The notes under the pieces were generated by a model that searched no databases, was not told where the DNA came from, and saw only the letters and a program-made list of their open reading frames with translations. 64,000 bases of DNA, taken from the NCBI RefSeq assembly GCF_009733815.1, contig NZ_WNXY01000010.1:62001-126000 (forward strand). Direction: 5' to 3'. Position 1 is the first letter of the stretch. Every line of letters begins with the position of its first letter. Below are positions 3,475 to 33,188 of this stretch, in pieces. The stretch comes from Pseudactinotalea suaedae. GTDB taxonomy: Bacteria > Actinomycetota > Actinomycetes > Actinomycetales > Beutenbergiaceae. The translations under genes were made by a program, and so were the position numbers.

Positions 3475-4619
3475 CCGGCTTCCTCTCGCTCGGTCGGGCT
3501 CTCGCCCCGCAGGATCGCGACGGCCGCGGTGGCGCGCTCGCGACAAACCTCTAGGTCGGCACCGGTCACGGTGACGTGGCCCAGCTTGCGGCCCGGCCGG
3601 ACCGCCTTGCCGTACAGGTGGACCTTGGCCTCGGGACAGCGCGCCATCAGCGCGGGATAGGCGCTCGCGGGGTCCTCCAGCTCGGAGCCGAGCAGGTTGA
3701 CCATCACCGCCCACGGCGCGGTCGGTGCGGTGTCGCCGAGCGGGAGGTCCAGCACGGCCCGCAGGTGCTGCTCGAACTGGCTGGTGACCGAGCCGTCGAT
3801 CGAGAAGTGGCCCGAGTTGTGCGGCCGCATGGCGAGCTCGTTGACGAGCACGCCCTCCGCCGTCGCGAACAGCTCCACGGCGAGCACGCCGGTCACGCCC
3901 AGCCCCTCGGCGACGGTCCGGGCGATCTTCTCGGCCTCGCGCGCGAGCGCGGGGTCGAGGCCGGGCGCGGGTGAGAGCACCTCGGCGCAGACGCCGTCAC
4001 GCTGGATCGTCTCGACGACCGGCCACGAGCGCATCTCGCCCGAAGGGCGCCGCGCGACGAGCGCGGCGAGCTCGCGCACGAACGGGACCTTCTCCTCGAC
4101 CAGGAGCGGTCCGCCGTCGGCCATCCAGTCGGCGACCTCGACGGCGTGGCTCACCACGCGCACGCCCTTGCCGTCGTAGCCGCCCACCGGGGTCTTGACG
4201 ATGACGGGGCGGCCGACGGTCTCGGCGAACTCCTCGAGCTCGGCCGCGGTGCTCACGCGTGCCCAGCGCGGGCACGGCACGCCGAGGGCGCCCAGCCGTT
4301 CGCGCATGTGGAGCTTGTCCTGGGCGCAGGCCAGCGCGTCGGGGCCGGGCTGGACGCTGACGCCCTCGGCCTGCAGCGCGCGCAGGTGGTCGCCGGGGAT
4401 GTGCTCGTGCTCGAAGGTGAGCACGTCGGCGCCTGCGACGAGGGCGCGCAGGTCGGCCAGCTCCTTGGGGGTGCCCACCGGGCTGTCCGGGAGCACCTGG
4501 GCGGCAGCGCCGTCAGGGTCCTCCACCAGGGCTCGGAGCCTGATCTGCAGCGCAGCGGCAGGCTCGGCCATCATGCGGGCCAGCTGCCCGCCCCCCACCA
4601 CAGCGACCACGGGACCCAC
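3471..4619 (-). CDS. purK: N5-carboxyaminoimidazole ribonucleotide synthase PurK
   Basis: ATP-grasp enzyme that makes N5-CAIR from AIR, bicarbonate and ATP. Motifs include [14 protein letters not shown] at the N-terminus, [12 protein letters not shown], the ATP-grasp segment [29 protein letters not shown] and the metal-binding region [15 protein letters not shown]. The open frame runs far upstream, but homology begins only at [10 protein letters not shown], so I chose the GTG at 4619 (382 aa, family-normal). A TTG four codons earlier is the main alternative. It is the first gene of purK-purE and is divergent from the gtrA-like gene 91 bp away. Confidence 0.95.
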
Positions 4620-4710
4620 GGGTGGCAAGCCTAGTGGTGTACGGGGGCTGGTCAGCACTCCCCGCGTCGCCGGACCGCGCCCCCCGGGCGGCGCATGCGA
4701 TCCTCGTCCT

Positions 4711-21804: not shown

Positions 21805-23184
21805 GTGCCTCTGCCGACGACGGACCCCAGCCAGGTCGATCTCGACGCCCAGGGCGTCCTCGACTTCCTCGACGCCGCCGCGCACCTCGACCTCCACAGC
21901 ATCGCGATCGCGCGTGGCGGCCGCGCGGTCGTGCGCGGCTGGTGGGTGCCCTATGCCCCCGAGCGCCGGCACCTGCTCTACTCGGTGTCCAAGAGCGTGA
22001 CGGCGACGACGGTCGCCACGCTCGCGGCCGAGGGTCTCCTCGGTCTCGACGACCCGGTCCTGACGCACCTCCCGCCGGCCGCCCTCGCGGGCGTGCCCGA
22101 GATCGCCGACGTCTGGCACCGCGTCACCGTGCGGCACTGCCTGACGATGACCGTGGGGCACACCGCCGAGGCCTGGTCGGCTCCCCTCCGCGACGCCGAC
22201 GAGCCGCTCCACGCCATCCTCGCGAGCCCTCCGGATGCCGGGCCTGGCACCGTGTTCGCCTACAACCAGGTGGCCACGTACCTGCTCTCGCGCGCGGCCG
22301 AGCACCGCGGCGGGGCCCCGCTCGACGTGCTCGCCCGCGAGCGCGTGCTCGCCCCGCTGGGCGCCTCGGACCTGGTGTGGGAGACCGACCGTGCGGGGCA
22401 CCCGTGGGGATTCAGCGGCGCCCGGATGCGCACCGACGACCTGCTCTCCCTCACCCAGCTGTGGCTCGACGGCGGCCGGTCCGGGGATCGTCAGGTGGTG
22501 CCGGCCGCGTGGGTCGAGGAGGCCAGCGCCCCGTACCTGCCGGTCGAGGCGGACGAGGACTCGGACTGGGCGCAGGGATACGGTCAGAGCTTCTGGAACG
22601 CCCGGCACGGCTATCGCGCGGACGGCGCGTACGGCCAGTACGGGATCGTGCTTCCCGAGCACGGGCTCGCGGTCGCGATCACCTCCGAGATCAGCGAGAT
22701 GCAGGAGGTCCTGGACCTTCTCTGGCAGCACCTGCTGCCCGCCGTCGGCCGCGCCGGTGCTCCGGGAGCGGACGAGCGGCTCCGCACCCGGCTCGCCGCG
22801 CTGAGCATCCCGCCGCTGGGCGTCACCGCCGACGCGCCCCAGCCGCGCGGCAGCCTCGCGATCGACCCCGCCTCCGACGTCACCGGTGTGCACGGCGTGC
22901 AGATCGACGCGGACGGCGCCACGCTCACACTGGTCCGAGACGGCGAACCGATCCAGGTCGAGGTGGGCGACGGCACCTGGCTCACCGCCACCCCCACCGT
23001 GGACGGGCGCAGCCTGCCGGTCGCCGCCAGCGGGGGCTGGACCGAGAGCGGCTATGTCGCCGAGATCCGCATGGTCGAGACCCCGCACTCGTTCCGGGTG
23101 GCGACCGGGCCATCGGGTGCGCTGCTGAGCTGGCGGCTGGCACCGCTGGGAGGCGGCGACCCGCTGGTGTGCGCGACCCCGTGA
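21805..23184 (+). CDS. Serine hydrolase, beta-lactamase class C family
   Basis: 459 aa from the GTG at 21805. The N-terminal two-thirds is a penicillin-binding-protein/class C beta-lactamase-like hydrolase with the nucleophile motif SVSK (Ser60, Lys63). The second motif position reads YNQ rather than the usual Y-x-N, so activity is less certain. The C-terminal third (about 330-459) is a separate beta-rich domain. No signal peptide is visible, which suggests a cytoplasmic esterase or peptidase-like role rather than antibiotic resistance (inference). It is followed 25 bp later by the NUDIX gene. Confidence 0.87.
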   Translation: MPLPTTDPSQVDLDAQGVLDFLDAAAHLDLHSIAIARGGRAVVRGWWVPYAPERRHLLYSVSKSVTATTVATLAAEGLLGLDDPVLTHLPPAALAGVPEIADVWHRVTVRHCLTMTVGHTAEAWSAPLRDADEPLHAILASPPDAGPGTVFAYNQVATYLLSRAAEHRGGAPLDVLARERVLAPLGASDLVWETDRAGHPWGFSGARMRTDDLLSLTQLWLDGGRSGDRQVVPAAWVEEASAPYLPVEADEDSDWAQGYGQSFWNARHGYRADGAYGQYGIVLPEHGLAVAITSEISEMQEVLDLLWQHLLPAVGRAGAPGADERLRTRLAALSIPPLGVTADAPQPRGSLAIDPASDVTGVHGVQIDADGATLTLVRDGEPIQVEVGDGTWLTATPTVDGRSLPVAASGGWTESGYVAEIRMVETPHSFRVATGPSGALLSWRLAPLGGGDPLVCATP

Positions 23185-23209: not shown

Positions 23210-24103
23210 GTGACCGAGAGCGCTGACGGCTGGGTGGAGTGCCGGTGCGGCGCGCGCCACTGGGGCCGCAGCGGCGCAGCGGGTCTGCTGCTGACCGACG
23301 GCGCGCGCGTGGTGCTGCAGCACCGTGCGGAGTGGAGCCACCAGGGCGGGACGTGGGGGCTGCCGGGCGGCGCGCTGCACGCCGAGGAGACCGCGGTGGC
23401 CGGAGCGCTGCGCGAGGCGGCCGAGGAGGCCGGCATCGACGCCGGCCGGGTGCGTCCGGTCGCTACCTCGGTGCTCAGCCACCCCGACTGGAGCTACACC
23501 ACGGTGCTCGCGCGCACCGATCCTGGGCTGCACGTCGAGGCCACCGACGCCGAGAGCCTGGAGATCCGCTGGGTGCCGATGGCCGACGTCGCCGACCGCC
23601 GGCTGCTGCCCGCGTTCGGCGACGCCTGGCCGGACCTGCGGGCGATGCTCGACGTCGACCTGCAGGTCGTGGTCGACGCCGCCAACGTGGTCGGCAGCCG
23701 CCCGGACGGCTGGTGGCGCGACCGCCGCGGCGCCGCCGAACGGCTCCTCGGCAGCCTCGAGACCCTCGCGGCGACCGGCGTCCCTGCCGCCTTCGCAGGC
23801 CTGCCAGGTGAGCGGTGGTGGCCTGCCTGGCACGTCGTGGTCGAGGGCGCCGCCCGCGGTGCCGAGACCAGCGGCACCGGCCGCTCCGCCGTCGAGGTGG
23901 TTCGTGCCTCCGGCTCGGGCGACGACACGATCGTCGAGGTGACGACCGGCCTGGTCCAGGGCGGTGCCCGCGCGATCGTCGTCACCGCCGACCGCGAGCT
24001 GGCGGTGCGGTGCGGGACGGCGGGAGCGACCGTCGTCGGCCCGGGGAGCCTGCTCGCTCTGGTCGCGCCGCCCAGCCCGGGTGCGCCCAGCCCGCTCGCG
24101 TAG
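23210..24103 (+). CDS. NUDIX hydrolase fused to a C-terminal NYN/PIN-like domain
   Basis: 297 aa from the GTG at 23210. Residues 10-140 form a NUDIX domain with a complete box (residues 54-76, G-x5-E-x7-REAAEEAG) and an N-terminal CRCG. Residues 150-285 look like a NYN/PIN-type nuclease fold: [19 protein letters not shown] with Asp156 and Asn159, SGDDTIVE (Asp238-239) and IVVTADREL (Asp261), the expected spacing of the acidic residues. It may couple nucleotide or RNA-cap-like hydrolysis to RNA cleavage, which is inference. dapD begins 10 bp downstream. Confidence 0.8.
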
Positions 24104-24113
24104 GCTTCGCGCC

Positions 24114-25088
24114 ATGGCAGCGCAGAACTCCGACCGACGGGCCTGGGGAGTCGGGCTCGCCACCTCCACCCATGACGGCCGCGTGCTCGACACCTGGTAC
24201 CCGCGGCTCGGCCTGGGCGCGGCGCCGGACGACGTCCGCGGCCCCTACGGCACCCCGGCCGACCTGGCCGCGCTCGCGACCGAGTCGCCCGCGCGCCGCA
24301 CCCGGTCGGTGGTCGTGCACGCCGAGATCGACCTCGACGCCGCCCCGGCGGACGCCTCCGACGCCTACCTGCGGCTCCACCTGCTCTCGCACCGCCTCGT
24401 CCTGCCCAACTCGGTCAACCTCGACGGGCTGTTCGGGGTGCTGCAGAACGTCGTGTGGACCTCGGAAGGGCCGTGCGCACCGGAGGACTTCGAGGAGGTC
24501 CGGCTCGCGCTGCTGGCCGGCTCGCACGGTCGACCGGTCACCGTGCACGGCGTCGACAAGTTCCCCCGCATGACCGACTACGTGGTCCCTGCCGGCGTGC
24601 GCATCGCCGACGCCGACCGGGTCCGCCTCGGCGCCTACCTCGCCGAGGGCACGACCGTCATGCACGAGGGCTTCGTCAACTTCAACGCCGGCACGCTGGG
24701 CTCCTCCATGGTCGAGGGGCGGATCAGCCAGGGTGTCGTGGTCGGCGCGGGCAGCGACATCGGCGGCGGCGCCTCGATCATGGGCACCTTGTCCGGCGGC
24801 GGCTCGCACCGGGTCTCGATCGGCACCGGTTGCCTGCTGGGCGCCAATTCCGGCATCGGCATCTCGCTGGGTGACGACTGCGTGATCGAGGCCGGCCTGT
24901 ACGTGACCGCCGGGACCAAGGTGACGATCCGCACCTCCGCCGCGCCGCACCCCCAGATCGTCAGCGCCCGCGAGCTGTCCGGCGTCGACAACCTGCTGTT
25001 CCGCCGCAACTCGACCACCGGCGTGGTCGAGGCCATCGAGCGCAGCGGCTCCGGCGTCACGCTGAACGCGGCCCTGCACGCCCAGTGA
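24114..25088 (+). CDS. dapD: Tetrahydrodipicolinate N-succinyltransferase DapD
   Basis: Succinylates tetrahydrodipicolinate in the lysine/diaminopimelate pathway. 324 aa, the actinobacterial length class. The N-terminal domain begins [20 protein letters not shown]. The C-terminal left-handed beta-helix contains the hexapeptide repeats and [20 protein letters not shown] with [11 protein letters not shown], typical of mycobacterial-type DapD. The next enzyme of the succinylase pathway, DapC, is encoded at 35095-36216. Its stop overlaps the next gene's GTG (GTGA). Confidence 0.95.
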
Positions 25089-27620: not shown

Positions 27621-30600
27621 ATGGACCTCAGGCGAGCCACCCTCTACGACCCCTCCCTCGAGCACAGCGACTGCGGCGTCGGCTTCATCACGCGCAAGGA
27701 CGGCCGCCCCTCCCACGACGTCATCAGCAAGGGCGACGAGGCGCTGTGCGCGATCCCCCACCGCGGTGGCCGGTCCTCGGAGGGCGTCGGCGACGGCGCG
27801 GGGGTCAGCGTGGACCTGTCGGTCGAGCTCTTCTCCGCCATCACGGGCCAGGCGCTGCAGGCCGGGCGTTTCGGTGTCGGCAACTTCTTCATGCCCACCG
27901 ACGAGCAGGCCTGGCCGGCGGCTCGCCAGCTGGTCGACGACGTGCTCGCGACGGTGGGCGTCGAGGTGCTCGCCGTCCGCGACGTGCCGGTCGAGCGCAG
28001 CGTGCTGCGGCCGGCCGCGCTCGCCTACCAGCTGCCGATCGTGCAGTGGGTGTTCCGCGCCGCACCCGGTTGGGACCGCACCGACCTCGACCGAGCCACC
28101 AACGCCGCGCTGCTGCGCATCGAGTCGGCCGCCTTCGCCGACCCGGCGCTCGCCGGCCTCTACCCGCTCTCCCTCAGCGCCCGCACGCAGGTCCTCAAGG
28201 GGCGTCTGAACTCCGGTGAGGTGATCGCCTACTTCACCGACCTGACCGACGAGCGCCACTCCGTGCGCACGCTGTACTTCCACACGCGCTTCTCCACCAA
28301 CACCGAGCCGCATCCGAGCATGGCGCAGCCGTTCCGCATGATGGCGCACAACGGCGAGCTCAACACCGACCGCAAGAACCGTCTCTCGGACGAGGCGCTC
28401 GCGAGCTCGCGCCACCGCAGCATCGTCCGGCCGCCCGGTCAGTCCGACTCCAGCCGCCTCGACCAGACCCTGCAGAGTCGAGTGTTCGACGACGGCCTGG
28501 GACTTCTCGAGGCGGTCGTCTCGTTGATGCCGCCCGCCTGGGAGAACGACCGCACGCTGCCCGCCAACGTGCGCGACATGCTCGAGTACTTCTCGCTGTA
28601 CGAGGAGAAGAACGACGGCCCCGCAGCGGTGATCTTCAGCGACGGCGACATCGTCGGCGCGCGCCTGGACCGGCTCGGGCTGCGCCCGCTGCGCACGGTC
28701 GAGACCGACACCTACCTGATGGTCTCCTCCGAAGCGGGGCAGGTCGACTTCCCCGCCGAGGAGGTCACCGGCCGCGGCCGCATCGAGGCCGGCGGCATGC
28801 TCTACCTCGACCACCGCACCGGGATCATCCACCGCACCTCCGAGGCGCTGGCGGTGCTGGCCGCGCGCCGCGACTACGGCGCGCTGCTCACGCGCGCGCG
28901 GGTCAAGCTCGAGGACCTGGAGCTGCCGGGTCGCCTCGAGCGTGGCAGCACCACCCTGGGGTACGACGGCGACCTGCCGCTGCCTGCTCGGTATGTCGCC
29001 TACGCCCTCAACTCCGAGAGCTTCCGGTTCATGATGGACCCGATGCTCGCCTCGGGAGCCGAGCGCATCTCGGCGATGGGGTACGGGAACGCGATCAACG
29101 CGCTCTCCGACACCGAGGGCGGCATGGCGAAGTACTTCTCGCAGCGCTTCGCCCAGGTGACCAACCCCTCGCTCGACAGCATCCGCGAGGCCGACGGGAT
29201 GAGCATGCACGTCGCGCTCGGCGCCAAGCCGGGCAGCGGCGCCGACATGACGCAGATCGTCGTGCCCTCGCCGATCCTGGGCCACCTGGAGATGCTGCGG
29301 CTGCGCGAGCAGCAGGTGACGCCGCTGCAGCGGTTCGACATGCTCTACACCCCGGCGCCGGGCGACGCCGAGGCGAACGCCGCGGCGATGCGCACGGCGC
29401 TGACCACGCTCTGTGACGAGCTCGAGCAGTTCGCGCTGTCCTCGGGAGGCATCGCCGTGGTCAGCGACCGCGCCATCTCGAGCACCCGCGCGCCGCTGCC
29501 GCTGCCGCTCGCCCTCGCCGCCGTGAACCGGCGCCTGATCGAGACCGGGCTGCGGCTGCGGGTCTCGGTGGTGGCCGAGAGCGGTCAGCTGCCTTCCTCC
29601 CACCACATCGCGGTGGCGCTGGGCTTCGGCGCGTCCGCGGTCTACAGCATCTCCGCGCGGCTGCGCGCCGAGCAGAAGTACCCGGCGCCGGCCGCTCCTG
29701 CCGAGACCGTCACCGAGACGGACCTCGCCGTCGAGAAGTACCGCAAGGCGGCCCTGAAGTCGCTCGCGAAGACCATGGGCCGGGTCGGCCTGTGCACGGT
29801 CGAGAGCTACATCGGCGGCGAGTTCTTCGAGCCCAACTACCTCGACACCCGTGACGAGGTGCTCGCCCAGTGCTTCCCGCACATGGACGCCCCCGTGGGC
29901 GGCGTCGGTTTCGAGCGCATCGCGGGTGCGGCGACCGCGTGGCACAGCCGCGCCCTGGAGGTCACCGAGGAGAGCCAGATCCCGCTGCTCGGCCTGTTCA
30001 AGGAGCGCGCCGAGGGGGCCGGCCACTCCTACGGGACGGTCGTGGTGCGCGGCTTCGGCGACATGACCGAGGAGCAGGTCAGCTTCGCGCCGCCGCAGAC
30101 CGATCCCGCCCTCCGGCTGCAGACCCTCCACGGTCTCGGGGACGCGTTCGGGCTCACCGACGAGGCGTACACCTACGCCGGTTTCGACGCGCTCACCGAC
30201 GCCGAGATCGACGCCTTCACGATCACGCCGGGCTACCGCGACTTCGTGTCGCAGACCCGCGCGGAGCGGGCGACCCGGCCCTCCGCGCTGCGTGACGTCC
30301 TCACGTTCCCGGCGGACGTCACCGGGCTGCGCACGGCGACCGAGTTCGCCACCGAGCTCGACCGGTTCGCGCTCGAGGGCAACGACAGCATCCTGGTGCG
30401 CGGTCTCGACATCGTGGAGACGCCGGACGCCGGAGGCGCGAGCGGGACCGACGCCGATGCGGCAGCGGTCACCCGGACCTTCCGGCTGCGGTTCACCGAT
30501 GTCTCGGGACCGCAGCCCGCACGCTACGAGGCGCTGGTCGGCGCCCTGGAGAGCACCTACCCGCAGGACGTCCACGAGCACCACCTCGCCGGTGACGAGC

Positions 30601-33188
30601 TCGTGCTGACGGTCTCCGGCCGGACCGCGCGGTTCCTGCGGTTGCTGCGTCCCGCGCCCGCACCGGTCCCGCTCCCGCTGGTGCAGCCCGCGCACGAGAT
30701 CACCCGCAGCCTCACCTCGGGGGCGATGAGCCACGGCGCCCTGGTCGCCACCGCCCACGAGGCGGTCGCGCACGGCACCAACATGGCCGGCGGGCTGTCG
30801 AACTGCGGTGAGGGCGGCGAGCACCTCTCGCGCTACGGCACGATCCGCGGCTCCCGCATCAAGCAGTTCGCCTCGGGGCGGTTCGGCATCTGGGCCGGCT
30901 ACCTGGCCGACCCGATGCTGCAGGAGCTCGAGATCAAGATCGGTCAGGGCGCCAAGCCCGGCGAGGGCGGCCAGCTCCCCGCGCCGAAGGTGACCGTCGA
31001 GATCGCCGCGGCGCGCGGCGGCACGCCCGGCGTCGAGCTCGTCTCGCCGCCGCCGCACCACGACACCTACTCGATCGAGGACCTCGCCCAGCTGATCCAC
31101 GACTGCAAGGCGGCGCGCGTCCGCGTGATCGTCAAGCTCGTCTCCTCCGAGGGGATCGGCACGATCGCCGTCGGGGTGGCCAAGGCCGGTGCGGACGTCA
31201 TCAACGTCGCCGGCAACACCGGCGGCACCGGTGCGGCCCCGGTGACGAGCCTCAAGTACGCCGGCCGGTCCGCGGAGATCGGCGTGGCCGAGGTGCACCA
31301 GGCGCTCACCGCGAACGGGCTGCGCCAGAAGGTGACGCTGCGCTGCTCCGGCGCGCACCAGACCGGACGCGACGTGGTGATCTCGGCCCTGCTCGGCGCC
31401 GACAGCTTCGAGTTCGGCACCACCGCGCTGATGATGCTCAAGTGCGTGATGGCGAAGAACTGCAACATCAAGTGCCCCGCCGGCCTCACCACCAACCCTG
31501 AGGCGTTCGACGGCGACCCGCGCGCGCTCGCGCAGTTCCTGCTCAACATCGCCCACGACGTCCGCGAGCTGCTGGCCCGGCTGGGCCTGTCCTCGCTGCG
31601 CGAGGCGCGCGGCCGGGGTGACCTGCTGCAGCTGCTCGAGCACCCGGCTGCGGTCGGCAAGCTCGACGTGCGACGCATGCTTGCGGCCGTCCCCGAGAAG
31701 GTCGTGACCGACCCGGTCTACCTCGAGAAGGACTTCGCCACCGACGACGCTCTCATCGACCAGGTGCGGGCTGCGCTCGTGCTGGGCCGCCAGGAGCAGG
31801 TCAGCATCGACGCCGGGCAGCTGCGCAACTCCGACAAGACCGTCGGCGGGCAGCTGTCGATCGACGTCGAGCGGCTGCTCAACCACGAGCTGGAGCAGGA
31901 CGTCCTCGCCGCGATGCCTGCCGTCGCGGCAGACGAGCGCGGCCGCAGCTACCTGCTCCCCGACTCGGTGCTGGTCACCACGACCGGCTCGGCCGGGCAG
32001 TCCTTCGGCGCGTTCTGCAACGACGGCATCTCGCTGACGCACATCGGCACGGCGAACGACGGCGTCGGGAAGTCGGCCTCGGGCGGCCAGATCACGGTCC
32101 GCACGCCGGGCGGGGGCAACCCCGGGCTGCCCGGCGGCAACGTGCTGATCGGCAACTTCGCGCTGTTCGGAGCGACCGGTGGCCGGCTCTTCGTCCAGGG
32201 CGAGGCCGGTGACAGGTTCGCCGTGCGGAACTCGGGGGCGACCGCCGTCGTCGAGGGTCTCGGCGAGTTCGGGTGCGAGTACATGACCAACGGCGCCGTG
32301 CTCAACCTCGGTGGTGCCGGCAAGGGGCTGGGCAACGGCATGAGCGGCGGGTTCGTCTACCAGTACGACCCGGCCGGCACGATCGCGGGCCGGGTGAGCG
32401 AGGACTCGCTGCTGGTGCTGCCCCTCATCGACTCCGAGCACGGGCCCTTCCACGAGCTCGCGGTCCGCACGATGCTGCAGTGGCACCTCGAGGCGACCGG
32501 TTCGCCGCTCGCCGAGCGGCTGCTCGAGGACTGGTCCACGGCGCGCGAGCACATGGTCGTCGGCATGCCACGCGCGCTCCTGCTGTACCAGGACGCCGAC
32601 GCGATCGCCGCCCACAAGTCGCGCAAGGAGCTGCTGGAGGAGCTCAACACGGCGATCGCCGCCGACAAGCTGCGCGAGTTCAAGGAGCACTACCGCGACG
32701 GGACCCCGATCGCCGGTGGCCGGGTGCCGGTGATCGGCGGCACCGACGCCGGCGACATGTACGGCCTGCTCAGCTCCTACACGGTGCTGAGCGCGGCTCA
32801 GGAGATCGCGCTCGACCGCGTGGGCGGTGGCGCGGCGATCGACGACCCCCGGGTCGTCGAGACCGCACGCACCCTCGTGCTGACCGAGGACTTCTTCGTG
32901 ATGCAGCGGCTCGTCAAGTACATCCGTGGGCACCTCGAGGTCTTCGAGGACCATGAGCTCGCGACGCTCGTCGCAGCCAAGCGGCTCGACGACTACCGGC
33001 GTTCGTTGCAGCTGCGCAACGTCCGCGGCATCGACGCGCCCGGCACGTACGGGTGGATCCTGTACCAGCAGAGCAAGAACAGCCGCCGCGCGCGTGCGGC
33101 CCGGTTCGACGAGATGCTCGCGACGGCGGCGCTCGACGACCTGGCCTCGCTCGCCGGTGCGCTCACCTCGAAGGTGGTGGCTCCATGA
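27621..33188 (+). CDS. Very large glutamate-synthase-like protein (GOGAT alpha-subunit homologue)
   Basis: 1855 aa, against about 1500 for GltB. Order: class II glutaminase domain with nucleophile Cys18 after a short propeptide (HSDCGVGFI) and HNGELNTDRKNR; central domain (about 430-700); FMN-binding synthase domain from about 1030 (TSGAMSHGALV, IKQFASGRFG, GAKPGEGGQLP, SPPPHHDTYSIEDLAQLIHD); iron-sulfur cysteines C1275, C1281, C1285; GXGXG helix (about 1490-1620, FAVRNSGATAVVEG, GNGMSGGFVYQ). Two parts are extra compared with GltB: an insertion at about 896-1025 and a C-terminal extension of about 200 residues. The last Cys spacing is x3 instead of x4. It overlaps the following diflavin reductase by four bases (ATGA), and there is no gltD. 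The expected reaction is glutamine plus 2-oxoglutarate to glutamate, but the true substrate is unproven. Confidence 0.88.
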   Translation: MDLRRATLYDPSLEHSDCGVGFITRKDGRPSHDVISKGDEALCAIPHRGGRSSEGVGDGAGVSVDLSVELFSAITGQALQAGRFGVGNFFMPTDEQAWPAARQLVDDVLATVGVEVLAVRDVPVERSVLRPAALAYQLPIVQWVFRAAPGWDRTDLDRATNAALLRIESAAFADPALAGLYPLSLSARTQVLKGRLNSGEVIAYFTDLTDERHSVRTLYFHTRFSTNTEPHPSMAQPFRMMAHNGELNTDRKNRLSDEALASSRHRSIVRPPGQSDSSRLDQTLQSRVFDDGLGLLEAVVSLMPPAWENDRTLPANVRDMLEYFSLYEEKNDGPAAVIFSDGDIVGARLDRLGLRPLRTVETDTYLMVSSEAGQVDFPAEEVTGRGRIEAGGMLYLDHRTGIIHRTSEALAVLAARRDYGALLTRARVKLEDLELPGRLERGSTTLGYDGDLPLPARYVAYALNSESFRFMMDPMLASGAERISAMGYGNAINALSDTEGGMAKYFSQRFAQVTNPSLDSIREADGMSMHVALGAKPGSGADMTQIVVPSPILGHLEMLRLREQQVTPLQRFDMLYTPAPGDAEANAAAMRTALTTLCDELEQFALSSGGIAVVSDRAISSTRAPLPLPLALAAVNRRLIETGLRLRVSVVAESGQLPSSHHIAVALGFGASAVYSISARLRAEQKYPAPAAPAETVTETDLAVEKYRKAALKSLAKTMGRVGLCTVESYIGGEFFEPNYLDTRDEVLAQCFPHMDAPVGGVGFERIAGAATAWHSRALEVTEESQIPLLGLFKERAEGAGHSYGTVVVRGFGDMTEEQVSFAPPQTDPALRLQTLHGLGDAFGLTDEAYTYAGFDALTDAEIDAFTITPGYRDFVSQTRAERATRPSALRDVLTFPADVTGLRTATEFATELDRFALEGNDSILVRGLDIVETPDAGGASGTDADAAAVTRTFRLRFTDVSGPQPARYEALVGALESTYPQDVHEHHLAGDELVLTVSGRTARFLRLLRPAPAPVPLPLVQPAHEITRSLTSGAMSHGALVATAHEAVAHGTNMAGGLSNCGEGGEHLSRYGTIRGSRIKQFASGRFGIWAGYLADPMLQELEIKIGQGAKPGEGGQLPAPKVTVEIAAARGGTPGVELVSPPPHHDTYSIEDLAQLIHDCKAARVRVIVKLVSSEGIGTIAVGVAKAGADVINVAGNTGGTGAAPVTSLKYAGRSAEIGVAEVHQALTANGLRQKVTLRCSGAHQTGRDVVISALLGADSFEFGTTALMMLKCVMAKNCNIKCPAGLTTNPEAFDGDPRALAQFLLNIAHDVRELLARLGLSSLREARGRGDLLQLLEHPAAVGKLDVRRMLAAVPEKVVTDPVYLEKDFATDDALIDQVRAALVLGRQEQVSIDAGQLRNSDKTVGGQLSIDVERLLNHELEQDVLAAMPAVAADERGRSYLLPDSVLVTTTGSAGQSFGAFCNDGISLTHIGTANDGVGKSASGGQITVRTPGGGNPGLPGGNVLIGNFALFGATGGRLFVQGEAGDRFAVRNSGATAVVEGLGEFGCEYMTNGAVLNLGGAGKGLGNGMSGGFVYQYDPAGTIAGRVSEDSLLVLPLIDSEHGPFHELAVRTMLQWHLEATGSPLAERLLEDWSTAREHMVVGMPRALLLYQDADAIAAHKSRKELLEELNTAIAADKLREFKEHYRDGTPIAGGRVPVIGGTDAGDMYGLLSSYTVLSAAQEIALDRVGGGAAIDDPRVVETARTLVLTEDFFVMQRLVKYIRGHLEVFEDHELATLVAAKRLDDYRRSLQLRNVRGIDAPGTYGWILYQQSKNSRRARAARFDEMLATAALDDLASLAGALTSKVVAP

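Follow-up and report, generated by a model that had tools for sequence, protein, structure and literature searches.

A gene joining a RenU-type Nudix domain to a Rae1/YacP-like NYN/PIN domain in Pseudactinotalea suaedae and related genomes

We analyzed a 64,000-nucleotide stretch of the Pseudactinotalea suaedae genome (contig NZ_WNXY01000010.1, positions 62,001 to 126,000; hereafter, the window) and concentrated on one of its genes, which joins a Nudix hydrolase of the RenU type to an NYN/PIN domain of the Rae1/YacP kind (Table 1). Such a joining had been proposed in a first-pass annotation of the DNA, and it is confirmed here for the Nudix part by PF00293 and for the NYN/PIN part by a family alignment together with the predicted fold. 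The explanation we favor, with moderate confidence, is that the gene encodes a two-domain enzyme, in whose single chain a dinucleotide-hydrolyzing domain is paired with a probable metal-dependent endoribonuclease. Computation shows the fold, the sites, and the fusion itself, and we infer the enzymatic activity and the coupling of the two halves.

To place the gene among its relatives, we assembled two sets of loci. For the first set, of 30 loci, we went through 59 related genomes, 34 of which, counting that of the window, contained a match. The second, named set consisted of the best 80 of at least 564 relatives, found among at least 597 genome stretches containing the pattern G[SA][RV]PDGWW; having been fetched by this single pattern, the named loci are biased toward the PDGWW stretch. 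Three alignments were built from these sets: one of 80 C-terminal domains (22 of the 30 first-set loci and 58 of the 80 named ones), one of 52 full-length fused proteins (19 of the 25 fused loci in the first set and 33 of the 59 in the named set), with near copies left out of both, and a further alignment, A1, covering 28 of the 30 first-set loci, fetched without the PDGWW pattern.

Fused genes proved to be frequent. The named set comprised 59 fused loci, 20 loci with an NYN domain but no fused Nudix, and one locus (L062) ending at a contig end. When 197 genomes of the class were scanned at thresholds of 1e-12 for NYN and 1e-30 for Nudix, the fusion appeared in 48 genomes from 10 families; in 18 genomes both parts were present but unlinked, 35 had the NYN alone, 42 the Nudix alone, and 54 neither. 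Because it recurs in this way in both the class sample and the named loci, the fusion is neither a chance reading frame nor an assembly joint; it is a real, widespread joining of two known families. A by-eye comparison of 396 genomes of the phylum, scanned at thresholds of 1e-5 and 1e-12, yielded four fused genomes, one of them that of the window, and all belonging to the same order as the window. We found no description of a fusion of the two families in the open-licence literature, searched at the level of titles and the beginnings of abstracts, a level at which a mention in body text or supplements could be missed.

The N-terminal half is a Nudix domain. The protein scored 60.9 bits against PF00293, whose cut-off is 21.1, and therefore belongs to the Nudix hydrolases. 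The complete Nudix box that the first-pass annotation had placed at residues 54-76 is intact in the translation, and the catalytic residues E60, R68, E69, E72, and E73 are invariant in the alignment of 52 fused proteins. RenU (6UUF) aligned with window residues 4-141 and was the sole PDB match below 1e-10. Judged by sequence, the Nudix half is thus a RenU homologue over the whole Nudix unit, and by analogy it would cleave dinucleotides of the kind of NADH, FAD, and ADP-ribose. According to the RenU report (PMC4401782), the mycobacterial protein (M. smegmatis) hydrolyzed its preferred substrates ADP-ribose, FAD, and NADH in vitro and did not act significantly on NAD+. The same report describes an association of RenU with ribosomal protein L13, names SmpB and L16 among 15 proteins that co-purified, and states, citing other work, that RenU is not involved in anti-mutation.

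Assigning the C-terminal half required a family profile and a structure model, since searches with the single sequence were misleading; phmmer against the PDB, for example, returned mostly antibody light chains, at E = 0.024 and above. Across the alignment of 80 C-terminal domains, matches at E ≤ 1 were obtained to NYN_YacP (PF05991) for 50 domains and to PIN_9 for 38, the best of these at 3.8e-6, and to DUF188 for 16. The family profile, searched against the PDB, gave seven matches at E ≤ 1, namely PIN-domain proteins, YacP, Utp24, and DNA polymerase I, with 1o4w at E = 0.011. The AlphaFold2 model of the domain had a predicted local distance difference test (pLDDT) score of 92.9. Foldseek matched this model with E < 0.001 to only three chains, all Rae1/YacP (Rae1 at 1.2e-5), and VIA-align put Rae1 at Z scores of 14.8 and 14.1, ahead of ExoIX, the MARF1 NYN domain, T4 RNase H, HARP, and the SMG6 PIN domain, which lie between 7 and 8.4, the highest value outside Rae1. 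The NYN/PIN assignment, which had been made from the letters alone, is therefore upheld by the predicted fold, which is PIN with Rae1/YacP closest, and by the profile matches of the family.

Examining the active-site residues revealed a highly conserved acidic cluster. D156, N159, E212, D238, T259, and D261 are invariant in the 52 full-length fused proteins, and the putative metal-binding cluster formed by D156, E212, D238, and D261, together with N159, is invariant in the 80 C-terminal domains as well. The earlier list of acidic residues consequently stands for D156, N159, D238, and D261, all kept in homologues, and falls for D239, which is neither invariant nor nearly so; it had lacked E212, T259, and the PDGWWRDR signature. 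The first acidic motif was present in all 30 first-set loci and all 80 named loci, so that no locus was dropped for want of it. The invariance of the signature is partly by construction, because the pattern G[SA][RV]PDGWW had been used to retrieve the named rows, 33 of the 52, and some domains of the Mycobacteriaceae-type family read RANGWW at this position; P, GWW, and DR are kept in all 28 rows of A1. The C-terminal half accordingly carries the acidic site of a Mg2+-dependent endoribonuclease, and we infer RNase activity from it.

The two halves are closely joined. A linker of three residues and a confident full-length model (pLDDT 95.1; predicted template modeling score, pTM, 0.91) suggest that both domains form one rigid unit. 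By a crude measure, the distance from the last tryptophan to the NYN motif, the spacing is 14-15 residues in 48 of the 52 fused proteins and 10, 34, 36, and 41 residues in the others.

Table 1. Features of the fusion gene, its neighbors, and other elements noted in the window (coordinates counted from the first letter of the window)
Feature	Position	Strand	Evidence or remark
RenU-NYN fusion gene, 297 amino acids, GTG start	23210..24103	+	Open reading frame and translation, no internal stop
N-terminal motif, residues 8-19, ahead of the Nudix fold	23231..23266	+	W18-G19 invariant, W8 nearly so (52 fused proteins)
Nudix domain, residues 23-129	23276..23596	+	PF00293, E = 1.7e-16; best PDB match RenU 6UUF, E = 3.2e-28
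Nudix box GX5EX7REUXEEXGU, residues 54-76	23369..23437	+	Translation; Ala at the first U position
Three-residue linker 148-150, last Nudix helix to first NYN strand	23651..23659	+	Full-length model
NYN/PIN (Rae1/YacP-like) domain, residues ~151-285	23660..24064	+	AlphaFold2 model, Foldseek, VIA-align, family alignment
D156-x-x-N159, first acidic motif	23675..23686	+	Invariant in 80 C-terminal domains and 52 full-length proteins
PDGWWRDR, residues 165-172, family signature	23702..23725	+	P165, G167, W168, W169, D171, R172 invariant in 52
E212, second acidic position (VEGAAR)	23843..23845	+	Invariant in 80 C-terminal domains and 52 fused proteins
D238-D239 (SGSGDD)	23921..23926	+	D238 alone invariant
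T259-x-D261, last acidic motif	23984..23992	+	Invariant
Beta-lactamase-fold serine hydrolase, upstream neighbor	21805..23184	+	PF00144, E = 5.2e-39; context only
DapD, downstream neighbor	24114..25088	+	TIGR03535, 500.3 bits (cut-off 441.5); context only
Thiamine pyrophosphate (TPP) riboswitch, RF00059	63753..63841	-	54.9 bits (gathering score 54.3)
Open frame of 1824 amino acids	27480..32954	-	Antisense to the GltB-like frame
GltB-like open reading frame	27621..33188		Named by eye

In the window, the serine hydrolase gene separates an AccA3-like gene from the fusion. A similar serine hydrolase adjoins three of the 25 fused first-set loci, the window's own included. Within 1.5 kb flanks of the 30 first-set loci, AccA3-like matches were found at 17 and DapD at 18, the latter again counting the window's own; in the named set, the counts were six and four of 80. 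Being common in the first set and rare in the named one, this gene context is local. We also considered two further associations. A candidate defense model of PADLOC, PDC-S07, matched the protein at E = 1.4e-7, with the match confined to the Nudix part (residues 29-135), and the neighboring DapD is a housekeeping gene; we have no ground for counting the fusion among defense genes. A plasmid association was rejected, as the 11 matching records of the plasmid collection all fell below 60% identity; one of the records, an 11.85 Mb Nonomuraea entry, covered at least 80% of the query. Elsewhere in the window lie a TPP riboswitch and a long open frame antisense to a GltB-like gene, the latter probably a by-product of high G+C content.

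The distribution of the two parts indicates how far they depend on each other. At the thresholds given above, none of the 48 fused genomes carried a second NYN domain beside the fusion, compared with 53 of the 149 other class genomes (p = 3e-8, ignoring shared ancestry), and within the Mycobacteriaceae-type family the corresponding numbers were 0 of 28 and 13 of 53 (p = 0.003, with the same caveat). In each genome, the NYN domain is hence either fused or free, which suggests a single function for which a Nudix in cis is not required. Freestanding copies of the NYN domain occur in Streptomyces as well as in deep branches of the phylum; other families have the Nudix by itself. Since other lineages have the parts unlinked or have lost one of them, the joining is useful but dispensable. 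As to the number of fusion origins, a tree of the C-terminal domains (125 rows, 136 columns, built by a quick method) requires at least eight changes between the fused and the lone state, of which the well-supported branches force one; L062, with its contig end, and L105, where a neighboring Nudix is followed by a degenerate NYN, were scored as alone. At the Actinoallomurus locus L105, the frame 3718-4653 comprises the Nudix and the degenerate NYN, and an intact free NYN extends downstream to 5375 on the same strand, as if by duplication.

The Mycobacteriaceae-type family displays the NYN domain in several states. A RenU-type Nudix was matched in 80 of its 81 genomes, although one of these matches (G618, locus L238, at E = 8.6e-21) looks by its sequence like another Nudix protein and six (genera g344 and g345) cover only about the first 85-100 profile positions. 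The NYN domain lies in the same gene as the Nudix in 28 of the 81 genomes, as paired by hand. Other homologues of the family have lost the D-x-x-N, WW, and GDD motifs and kept a segment like LPRTVELPDGGFGW, and in further members the protein ends directly behind the Nudix. Successive grades of NYN decay can be read in the tails of L153, L154, L157, L167, L175, L179, L186, L187, L189, L191, L194, L195, L198-L202, L205, and L230, with a short conserved tail as the endpoint in the Mycobacterium-like genomes L155, L158, L206, and L207. The label “Mycobacterium-like” rests on the match of L206 to RenU 6UUF (6e-82) and on the proximity of a PknG domain, no more than about 3.1 kb from the Nudix in each of the 14 genomes of the family in the class sample. 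In L236 and L237 (genus g345), the Nudix contains an insertion and is followed by a long, strongly diverged C-terminal part, maybe a further altered NYN. The Mycobacterium-like L208-L214 carry a separate, divergent, freestanding gene of the NYN_YacP type, reading VDGMNVIG[ST]RPDGWW.

We scored 20 “decayed” tails and six mycobacterial ones, chosen by eye from the tails read, with a profile of 19 intact domains. The scores of 17 of the 20 exceeded those of all 1326 shuffled or reversed controls (1194 scored, best 11.2), and those of L154, L184, and L217 did not. The six Mycobacterium-like tails (mostly LPRT-EIEAGVFVWC) reached 8.1-10.3, below the best control; in a second control, these scores were equaled by none of 3000 shuffles and by zero to three of 5000 windows of real sequence (best 10.1). 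A profile enlarged by the 17 decayed tails gave the six mycobacterial ones 11.9-14.1, more than any of 5000 windows of real sequence, of which 4792 received a score, or of 3000 shuffles, of which 2877 did (best 8.0). L154 and L217 now passed the threshold of this enlarged profile; L184 stayed below it, as did L156 and L159, whose mycobacterial tails are shorter. That threshold was passed by 24 of 52 non-fused proteins, 17 of them training rows and the remaining seven L154, L158, L215, L217, L230, L231, and L232; L225 and L226 scored 3.6 and 4.1. These comparisons are supportive, not decisive: the tail of mycobacterial RenU may be the last trace of an NYN domain, and mycobacterial RenU looks like a relative that lost its NYN half.

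As to function, we propose that both domains would serve RNA turnover under redox or oxidative stress and would be joined for this reason. In this view, a redox dinucleotide is cleared or sensed at the Nudix site and RNA is cut at the NYN site, perhaps, and here we speculate, on ribosomes. The ribosomal element is drawn by analogy: Rae1 is described as an endoribonuclease of the ribosomal A site (PMC6613710), and RenU co-purifies with L13. Several observations weigh against the proposal. Taken alone, the NYN domain of the window reached no Pfam cut-off: PF05991 was not listed, and DUF188 alone appeared, at E = 0.14. By sequence alone, the profile reached YacP only weakly (E = 0.43-0.44), and past E = 1 its PDB matches include a designed helical protein (E = 1.6). 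Rae1 has no counterpart in the alignment with our model past residue 133 (5mq8) or 142 (5mq9). This unaligned end contains R166, a missense change of which suppressed efp like loss-of-function alleles (PMC6613710), and ribosome docking can therefore not be carried over to the fusion. PknG, the kinase partner of mycobacterial RenU in the RHOCS relay (PknG-L13-RenU), occurs in five of the 48 fused genomes and always on a different contig; in the window's genome, the PknG-type rubredoxin domain is on contig C13 and the fusion on C21, so that renU does not lie beside pknG. Rare and unlinked as PknG is, the RHOCS relay does not explain the fusion, and we rejected PknG/RHOCS as its general partner. 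Together with the unaligned end of Rae1, the scarcity of PknG weakens the ribosome idea. Beyond chance, no co-occurrence of the two parts was detected in the class sample when the fused genomes were left out (Fisher p = 0.30), and an obligate partnership of Nudix and NYN is rejected by this chance-level co-occurrence among the 149 non-fused genomes. Finally, no assay of the fusion or of an NYN-bearing relative was found in the literature searched.

The lack of co-occurrence, along with the freestanding NYN and lone Nudix domains of other lineages, would also be expected of two independent housekeeping enzymes sharing a chain by accident, the Nudix clearing free dinucleotides and the NYN acting on unrelated RNA, uncoupled. 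We take this possibility seriously, while doubting it: an accident fits poorly with a fusion that the class sample shows in 10 families, that the Mycobacteriaceae-type family has as well, and that keeps both sites intact at a near-constant spacing. The first-pass annotation had suggested that the protein could process RNA 5' ends or modified nucleotides and then cleave RNA. An RNA 5'-end processor of this kind, in which the Nudix half would take a triphosphate or a metabolite cap (NAD, NADH, FAD, or ADP-ribose) off an RNA that the NYN half then cuts, seems unlikely. RNA pyrophosphohydrolase models gave weak matches of 18.6 bits (E = 9e-4) and 15.4 bits (E = 0.011), where the cut-offs are 116 and 139, and by eye, with no motif search made, we saw no NudC-type NAD-decapping motif. 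Still, a tight fusion would bring both sites to one RNA, and DCP2 is a Nudix enzyme. Human MARF1, which has an NYN-like domain, interacts with the DCP1:2 decapping complex (PMC6294520). The substrates reported for RenU cut both ways in this respect, as FAD, NADH, and ADP-ribose are hydrolyzed but NAD+, in contrast to NADH, not significantly (PMC4401782).

The remaining alternatives fare worse. It is improbable that the NYN half binds RNA without any catalytic activity. In many Mycobacteriaceae-type homologues, the domain is decayed or gone, so its loss is tolerated; the acidic residues are nevertheless invariant in the 52 aligned fusions that keep it, and it is from the decayed copies that those motifs are missing. 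An 8-oxo-(d)GTP sanitizer of the MutT type, equipped with an accessory domain, is very improbable: MutT models do match the Nudix half, and the mycobacterial homologue was once annotated as mutT3, but the best of these models reached 31.7 bits against a cut-off of 148. To a bolder conjecture we give a low probability: the fusion would be an early form of the RenU system in the class, a redox-dinucleotide-controlled, ribosome-associated mRNA endonuclease, and mycobacterial RenU a descendant without the RNase half, with its short C-terminal tail as a vestige, that kept the ribosomal (L13) contact. If this were true, RHOCS would be the remainder of a translation-linked RNA-decay switch.

The fusion links a redox-related dinucleotide hydrolase of mycobacterial stress survival with a Rae1-like RNase, and it permits a concrete test of whether RenU-type enzymes concern RNA or ribosomes. 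It points to a probable RNase in the window protein that Pfam does not recognize, and it suggests where the short tail of mycobacterial RenU may have come from. We regard the evolutionary link to mycobacterial RenU as the most interesting by-product of the analysis.

Compared with known systems, the window protein shares with RenU (Rv0413/MSMEG_0790, formerly MutT3; 6UUF) the N-terminal W..WG..GAAG motif and the Nudix domain. The deposited 6UUF chain has alanine at the box glutamates, which the window protein keeps; the alanines fit the inactive triple mutant of the RenU paper (PMC4401782). Mycobacterium-like RenU lacks the NYN domain and has only a short tail, maybe a remnant of it, and the Nudix lies near a PknG domain (within about 3.1 kb) in the 14 genomes of that family in the class sample but not in the 48 fused ones.

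For the C-terminal half, the closest fold is that of Rae1/YacP of Bacillus subtilis (5MQ8, 5MQ9), at 18-20% identity to the window domain. Rae1 has neither the Nudix fusion nor the PDGWWRDR stretch, and a glycine stands opposite E212 in a weak sequence alignment. Its Asp at chain position 81 (counted by hand) pairs with D238 in a weak profile alignment, as does the T-S-D whose Asp is at chain position 104 (likewise a hand count) with T259-x-D261 in a weak alignment. Relative to the Pfam family NYN_YacP (PF05991; cut-off 24.6 bits), the window domain and that of the fused L162 fall below the cut-off, unlike the standalone relatives L208 (43.5 bits; divergent, Mycobacterium-like) and L134 (30.2 bits; deep-branching), which pass it; we class the window domain as NYN_YacP-like, not as a member. 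The long actinobacterial NYN_YacP proteins L218, L219, and L222 (406, 538, and 421 amino acids) match the profile built from the fusion family only at E values of about 1e-9 to 1e-6; their C-terminal NYN_YacP domains pass the Pfam cut-off at 44.5-48.5 bits, and their long N-terminal region has no Nudix match in Pfam.
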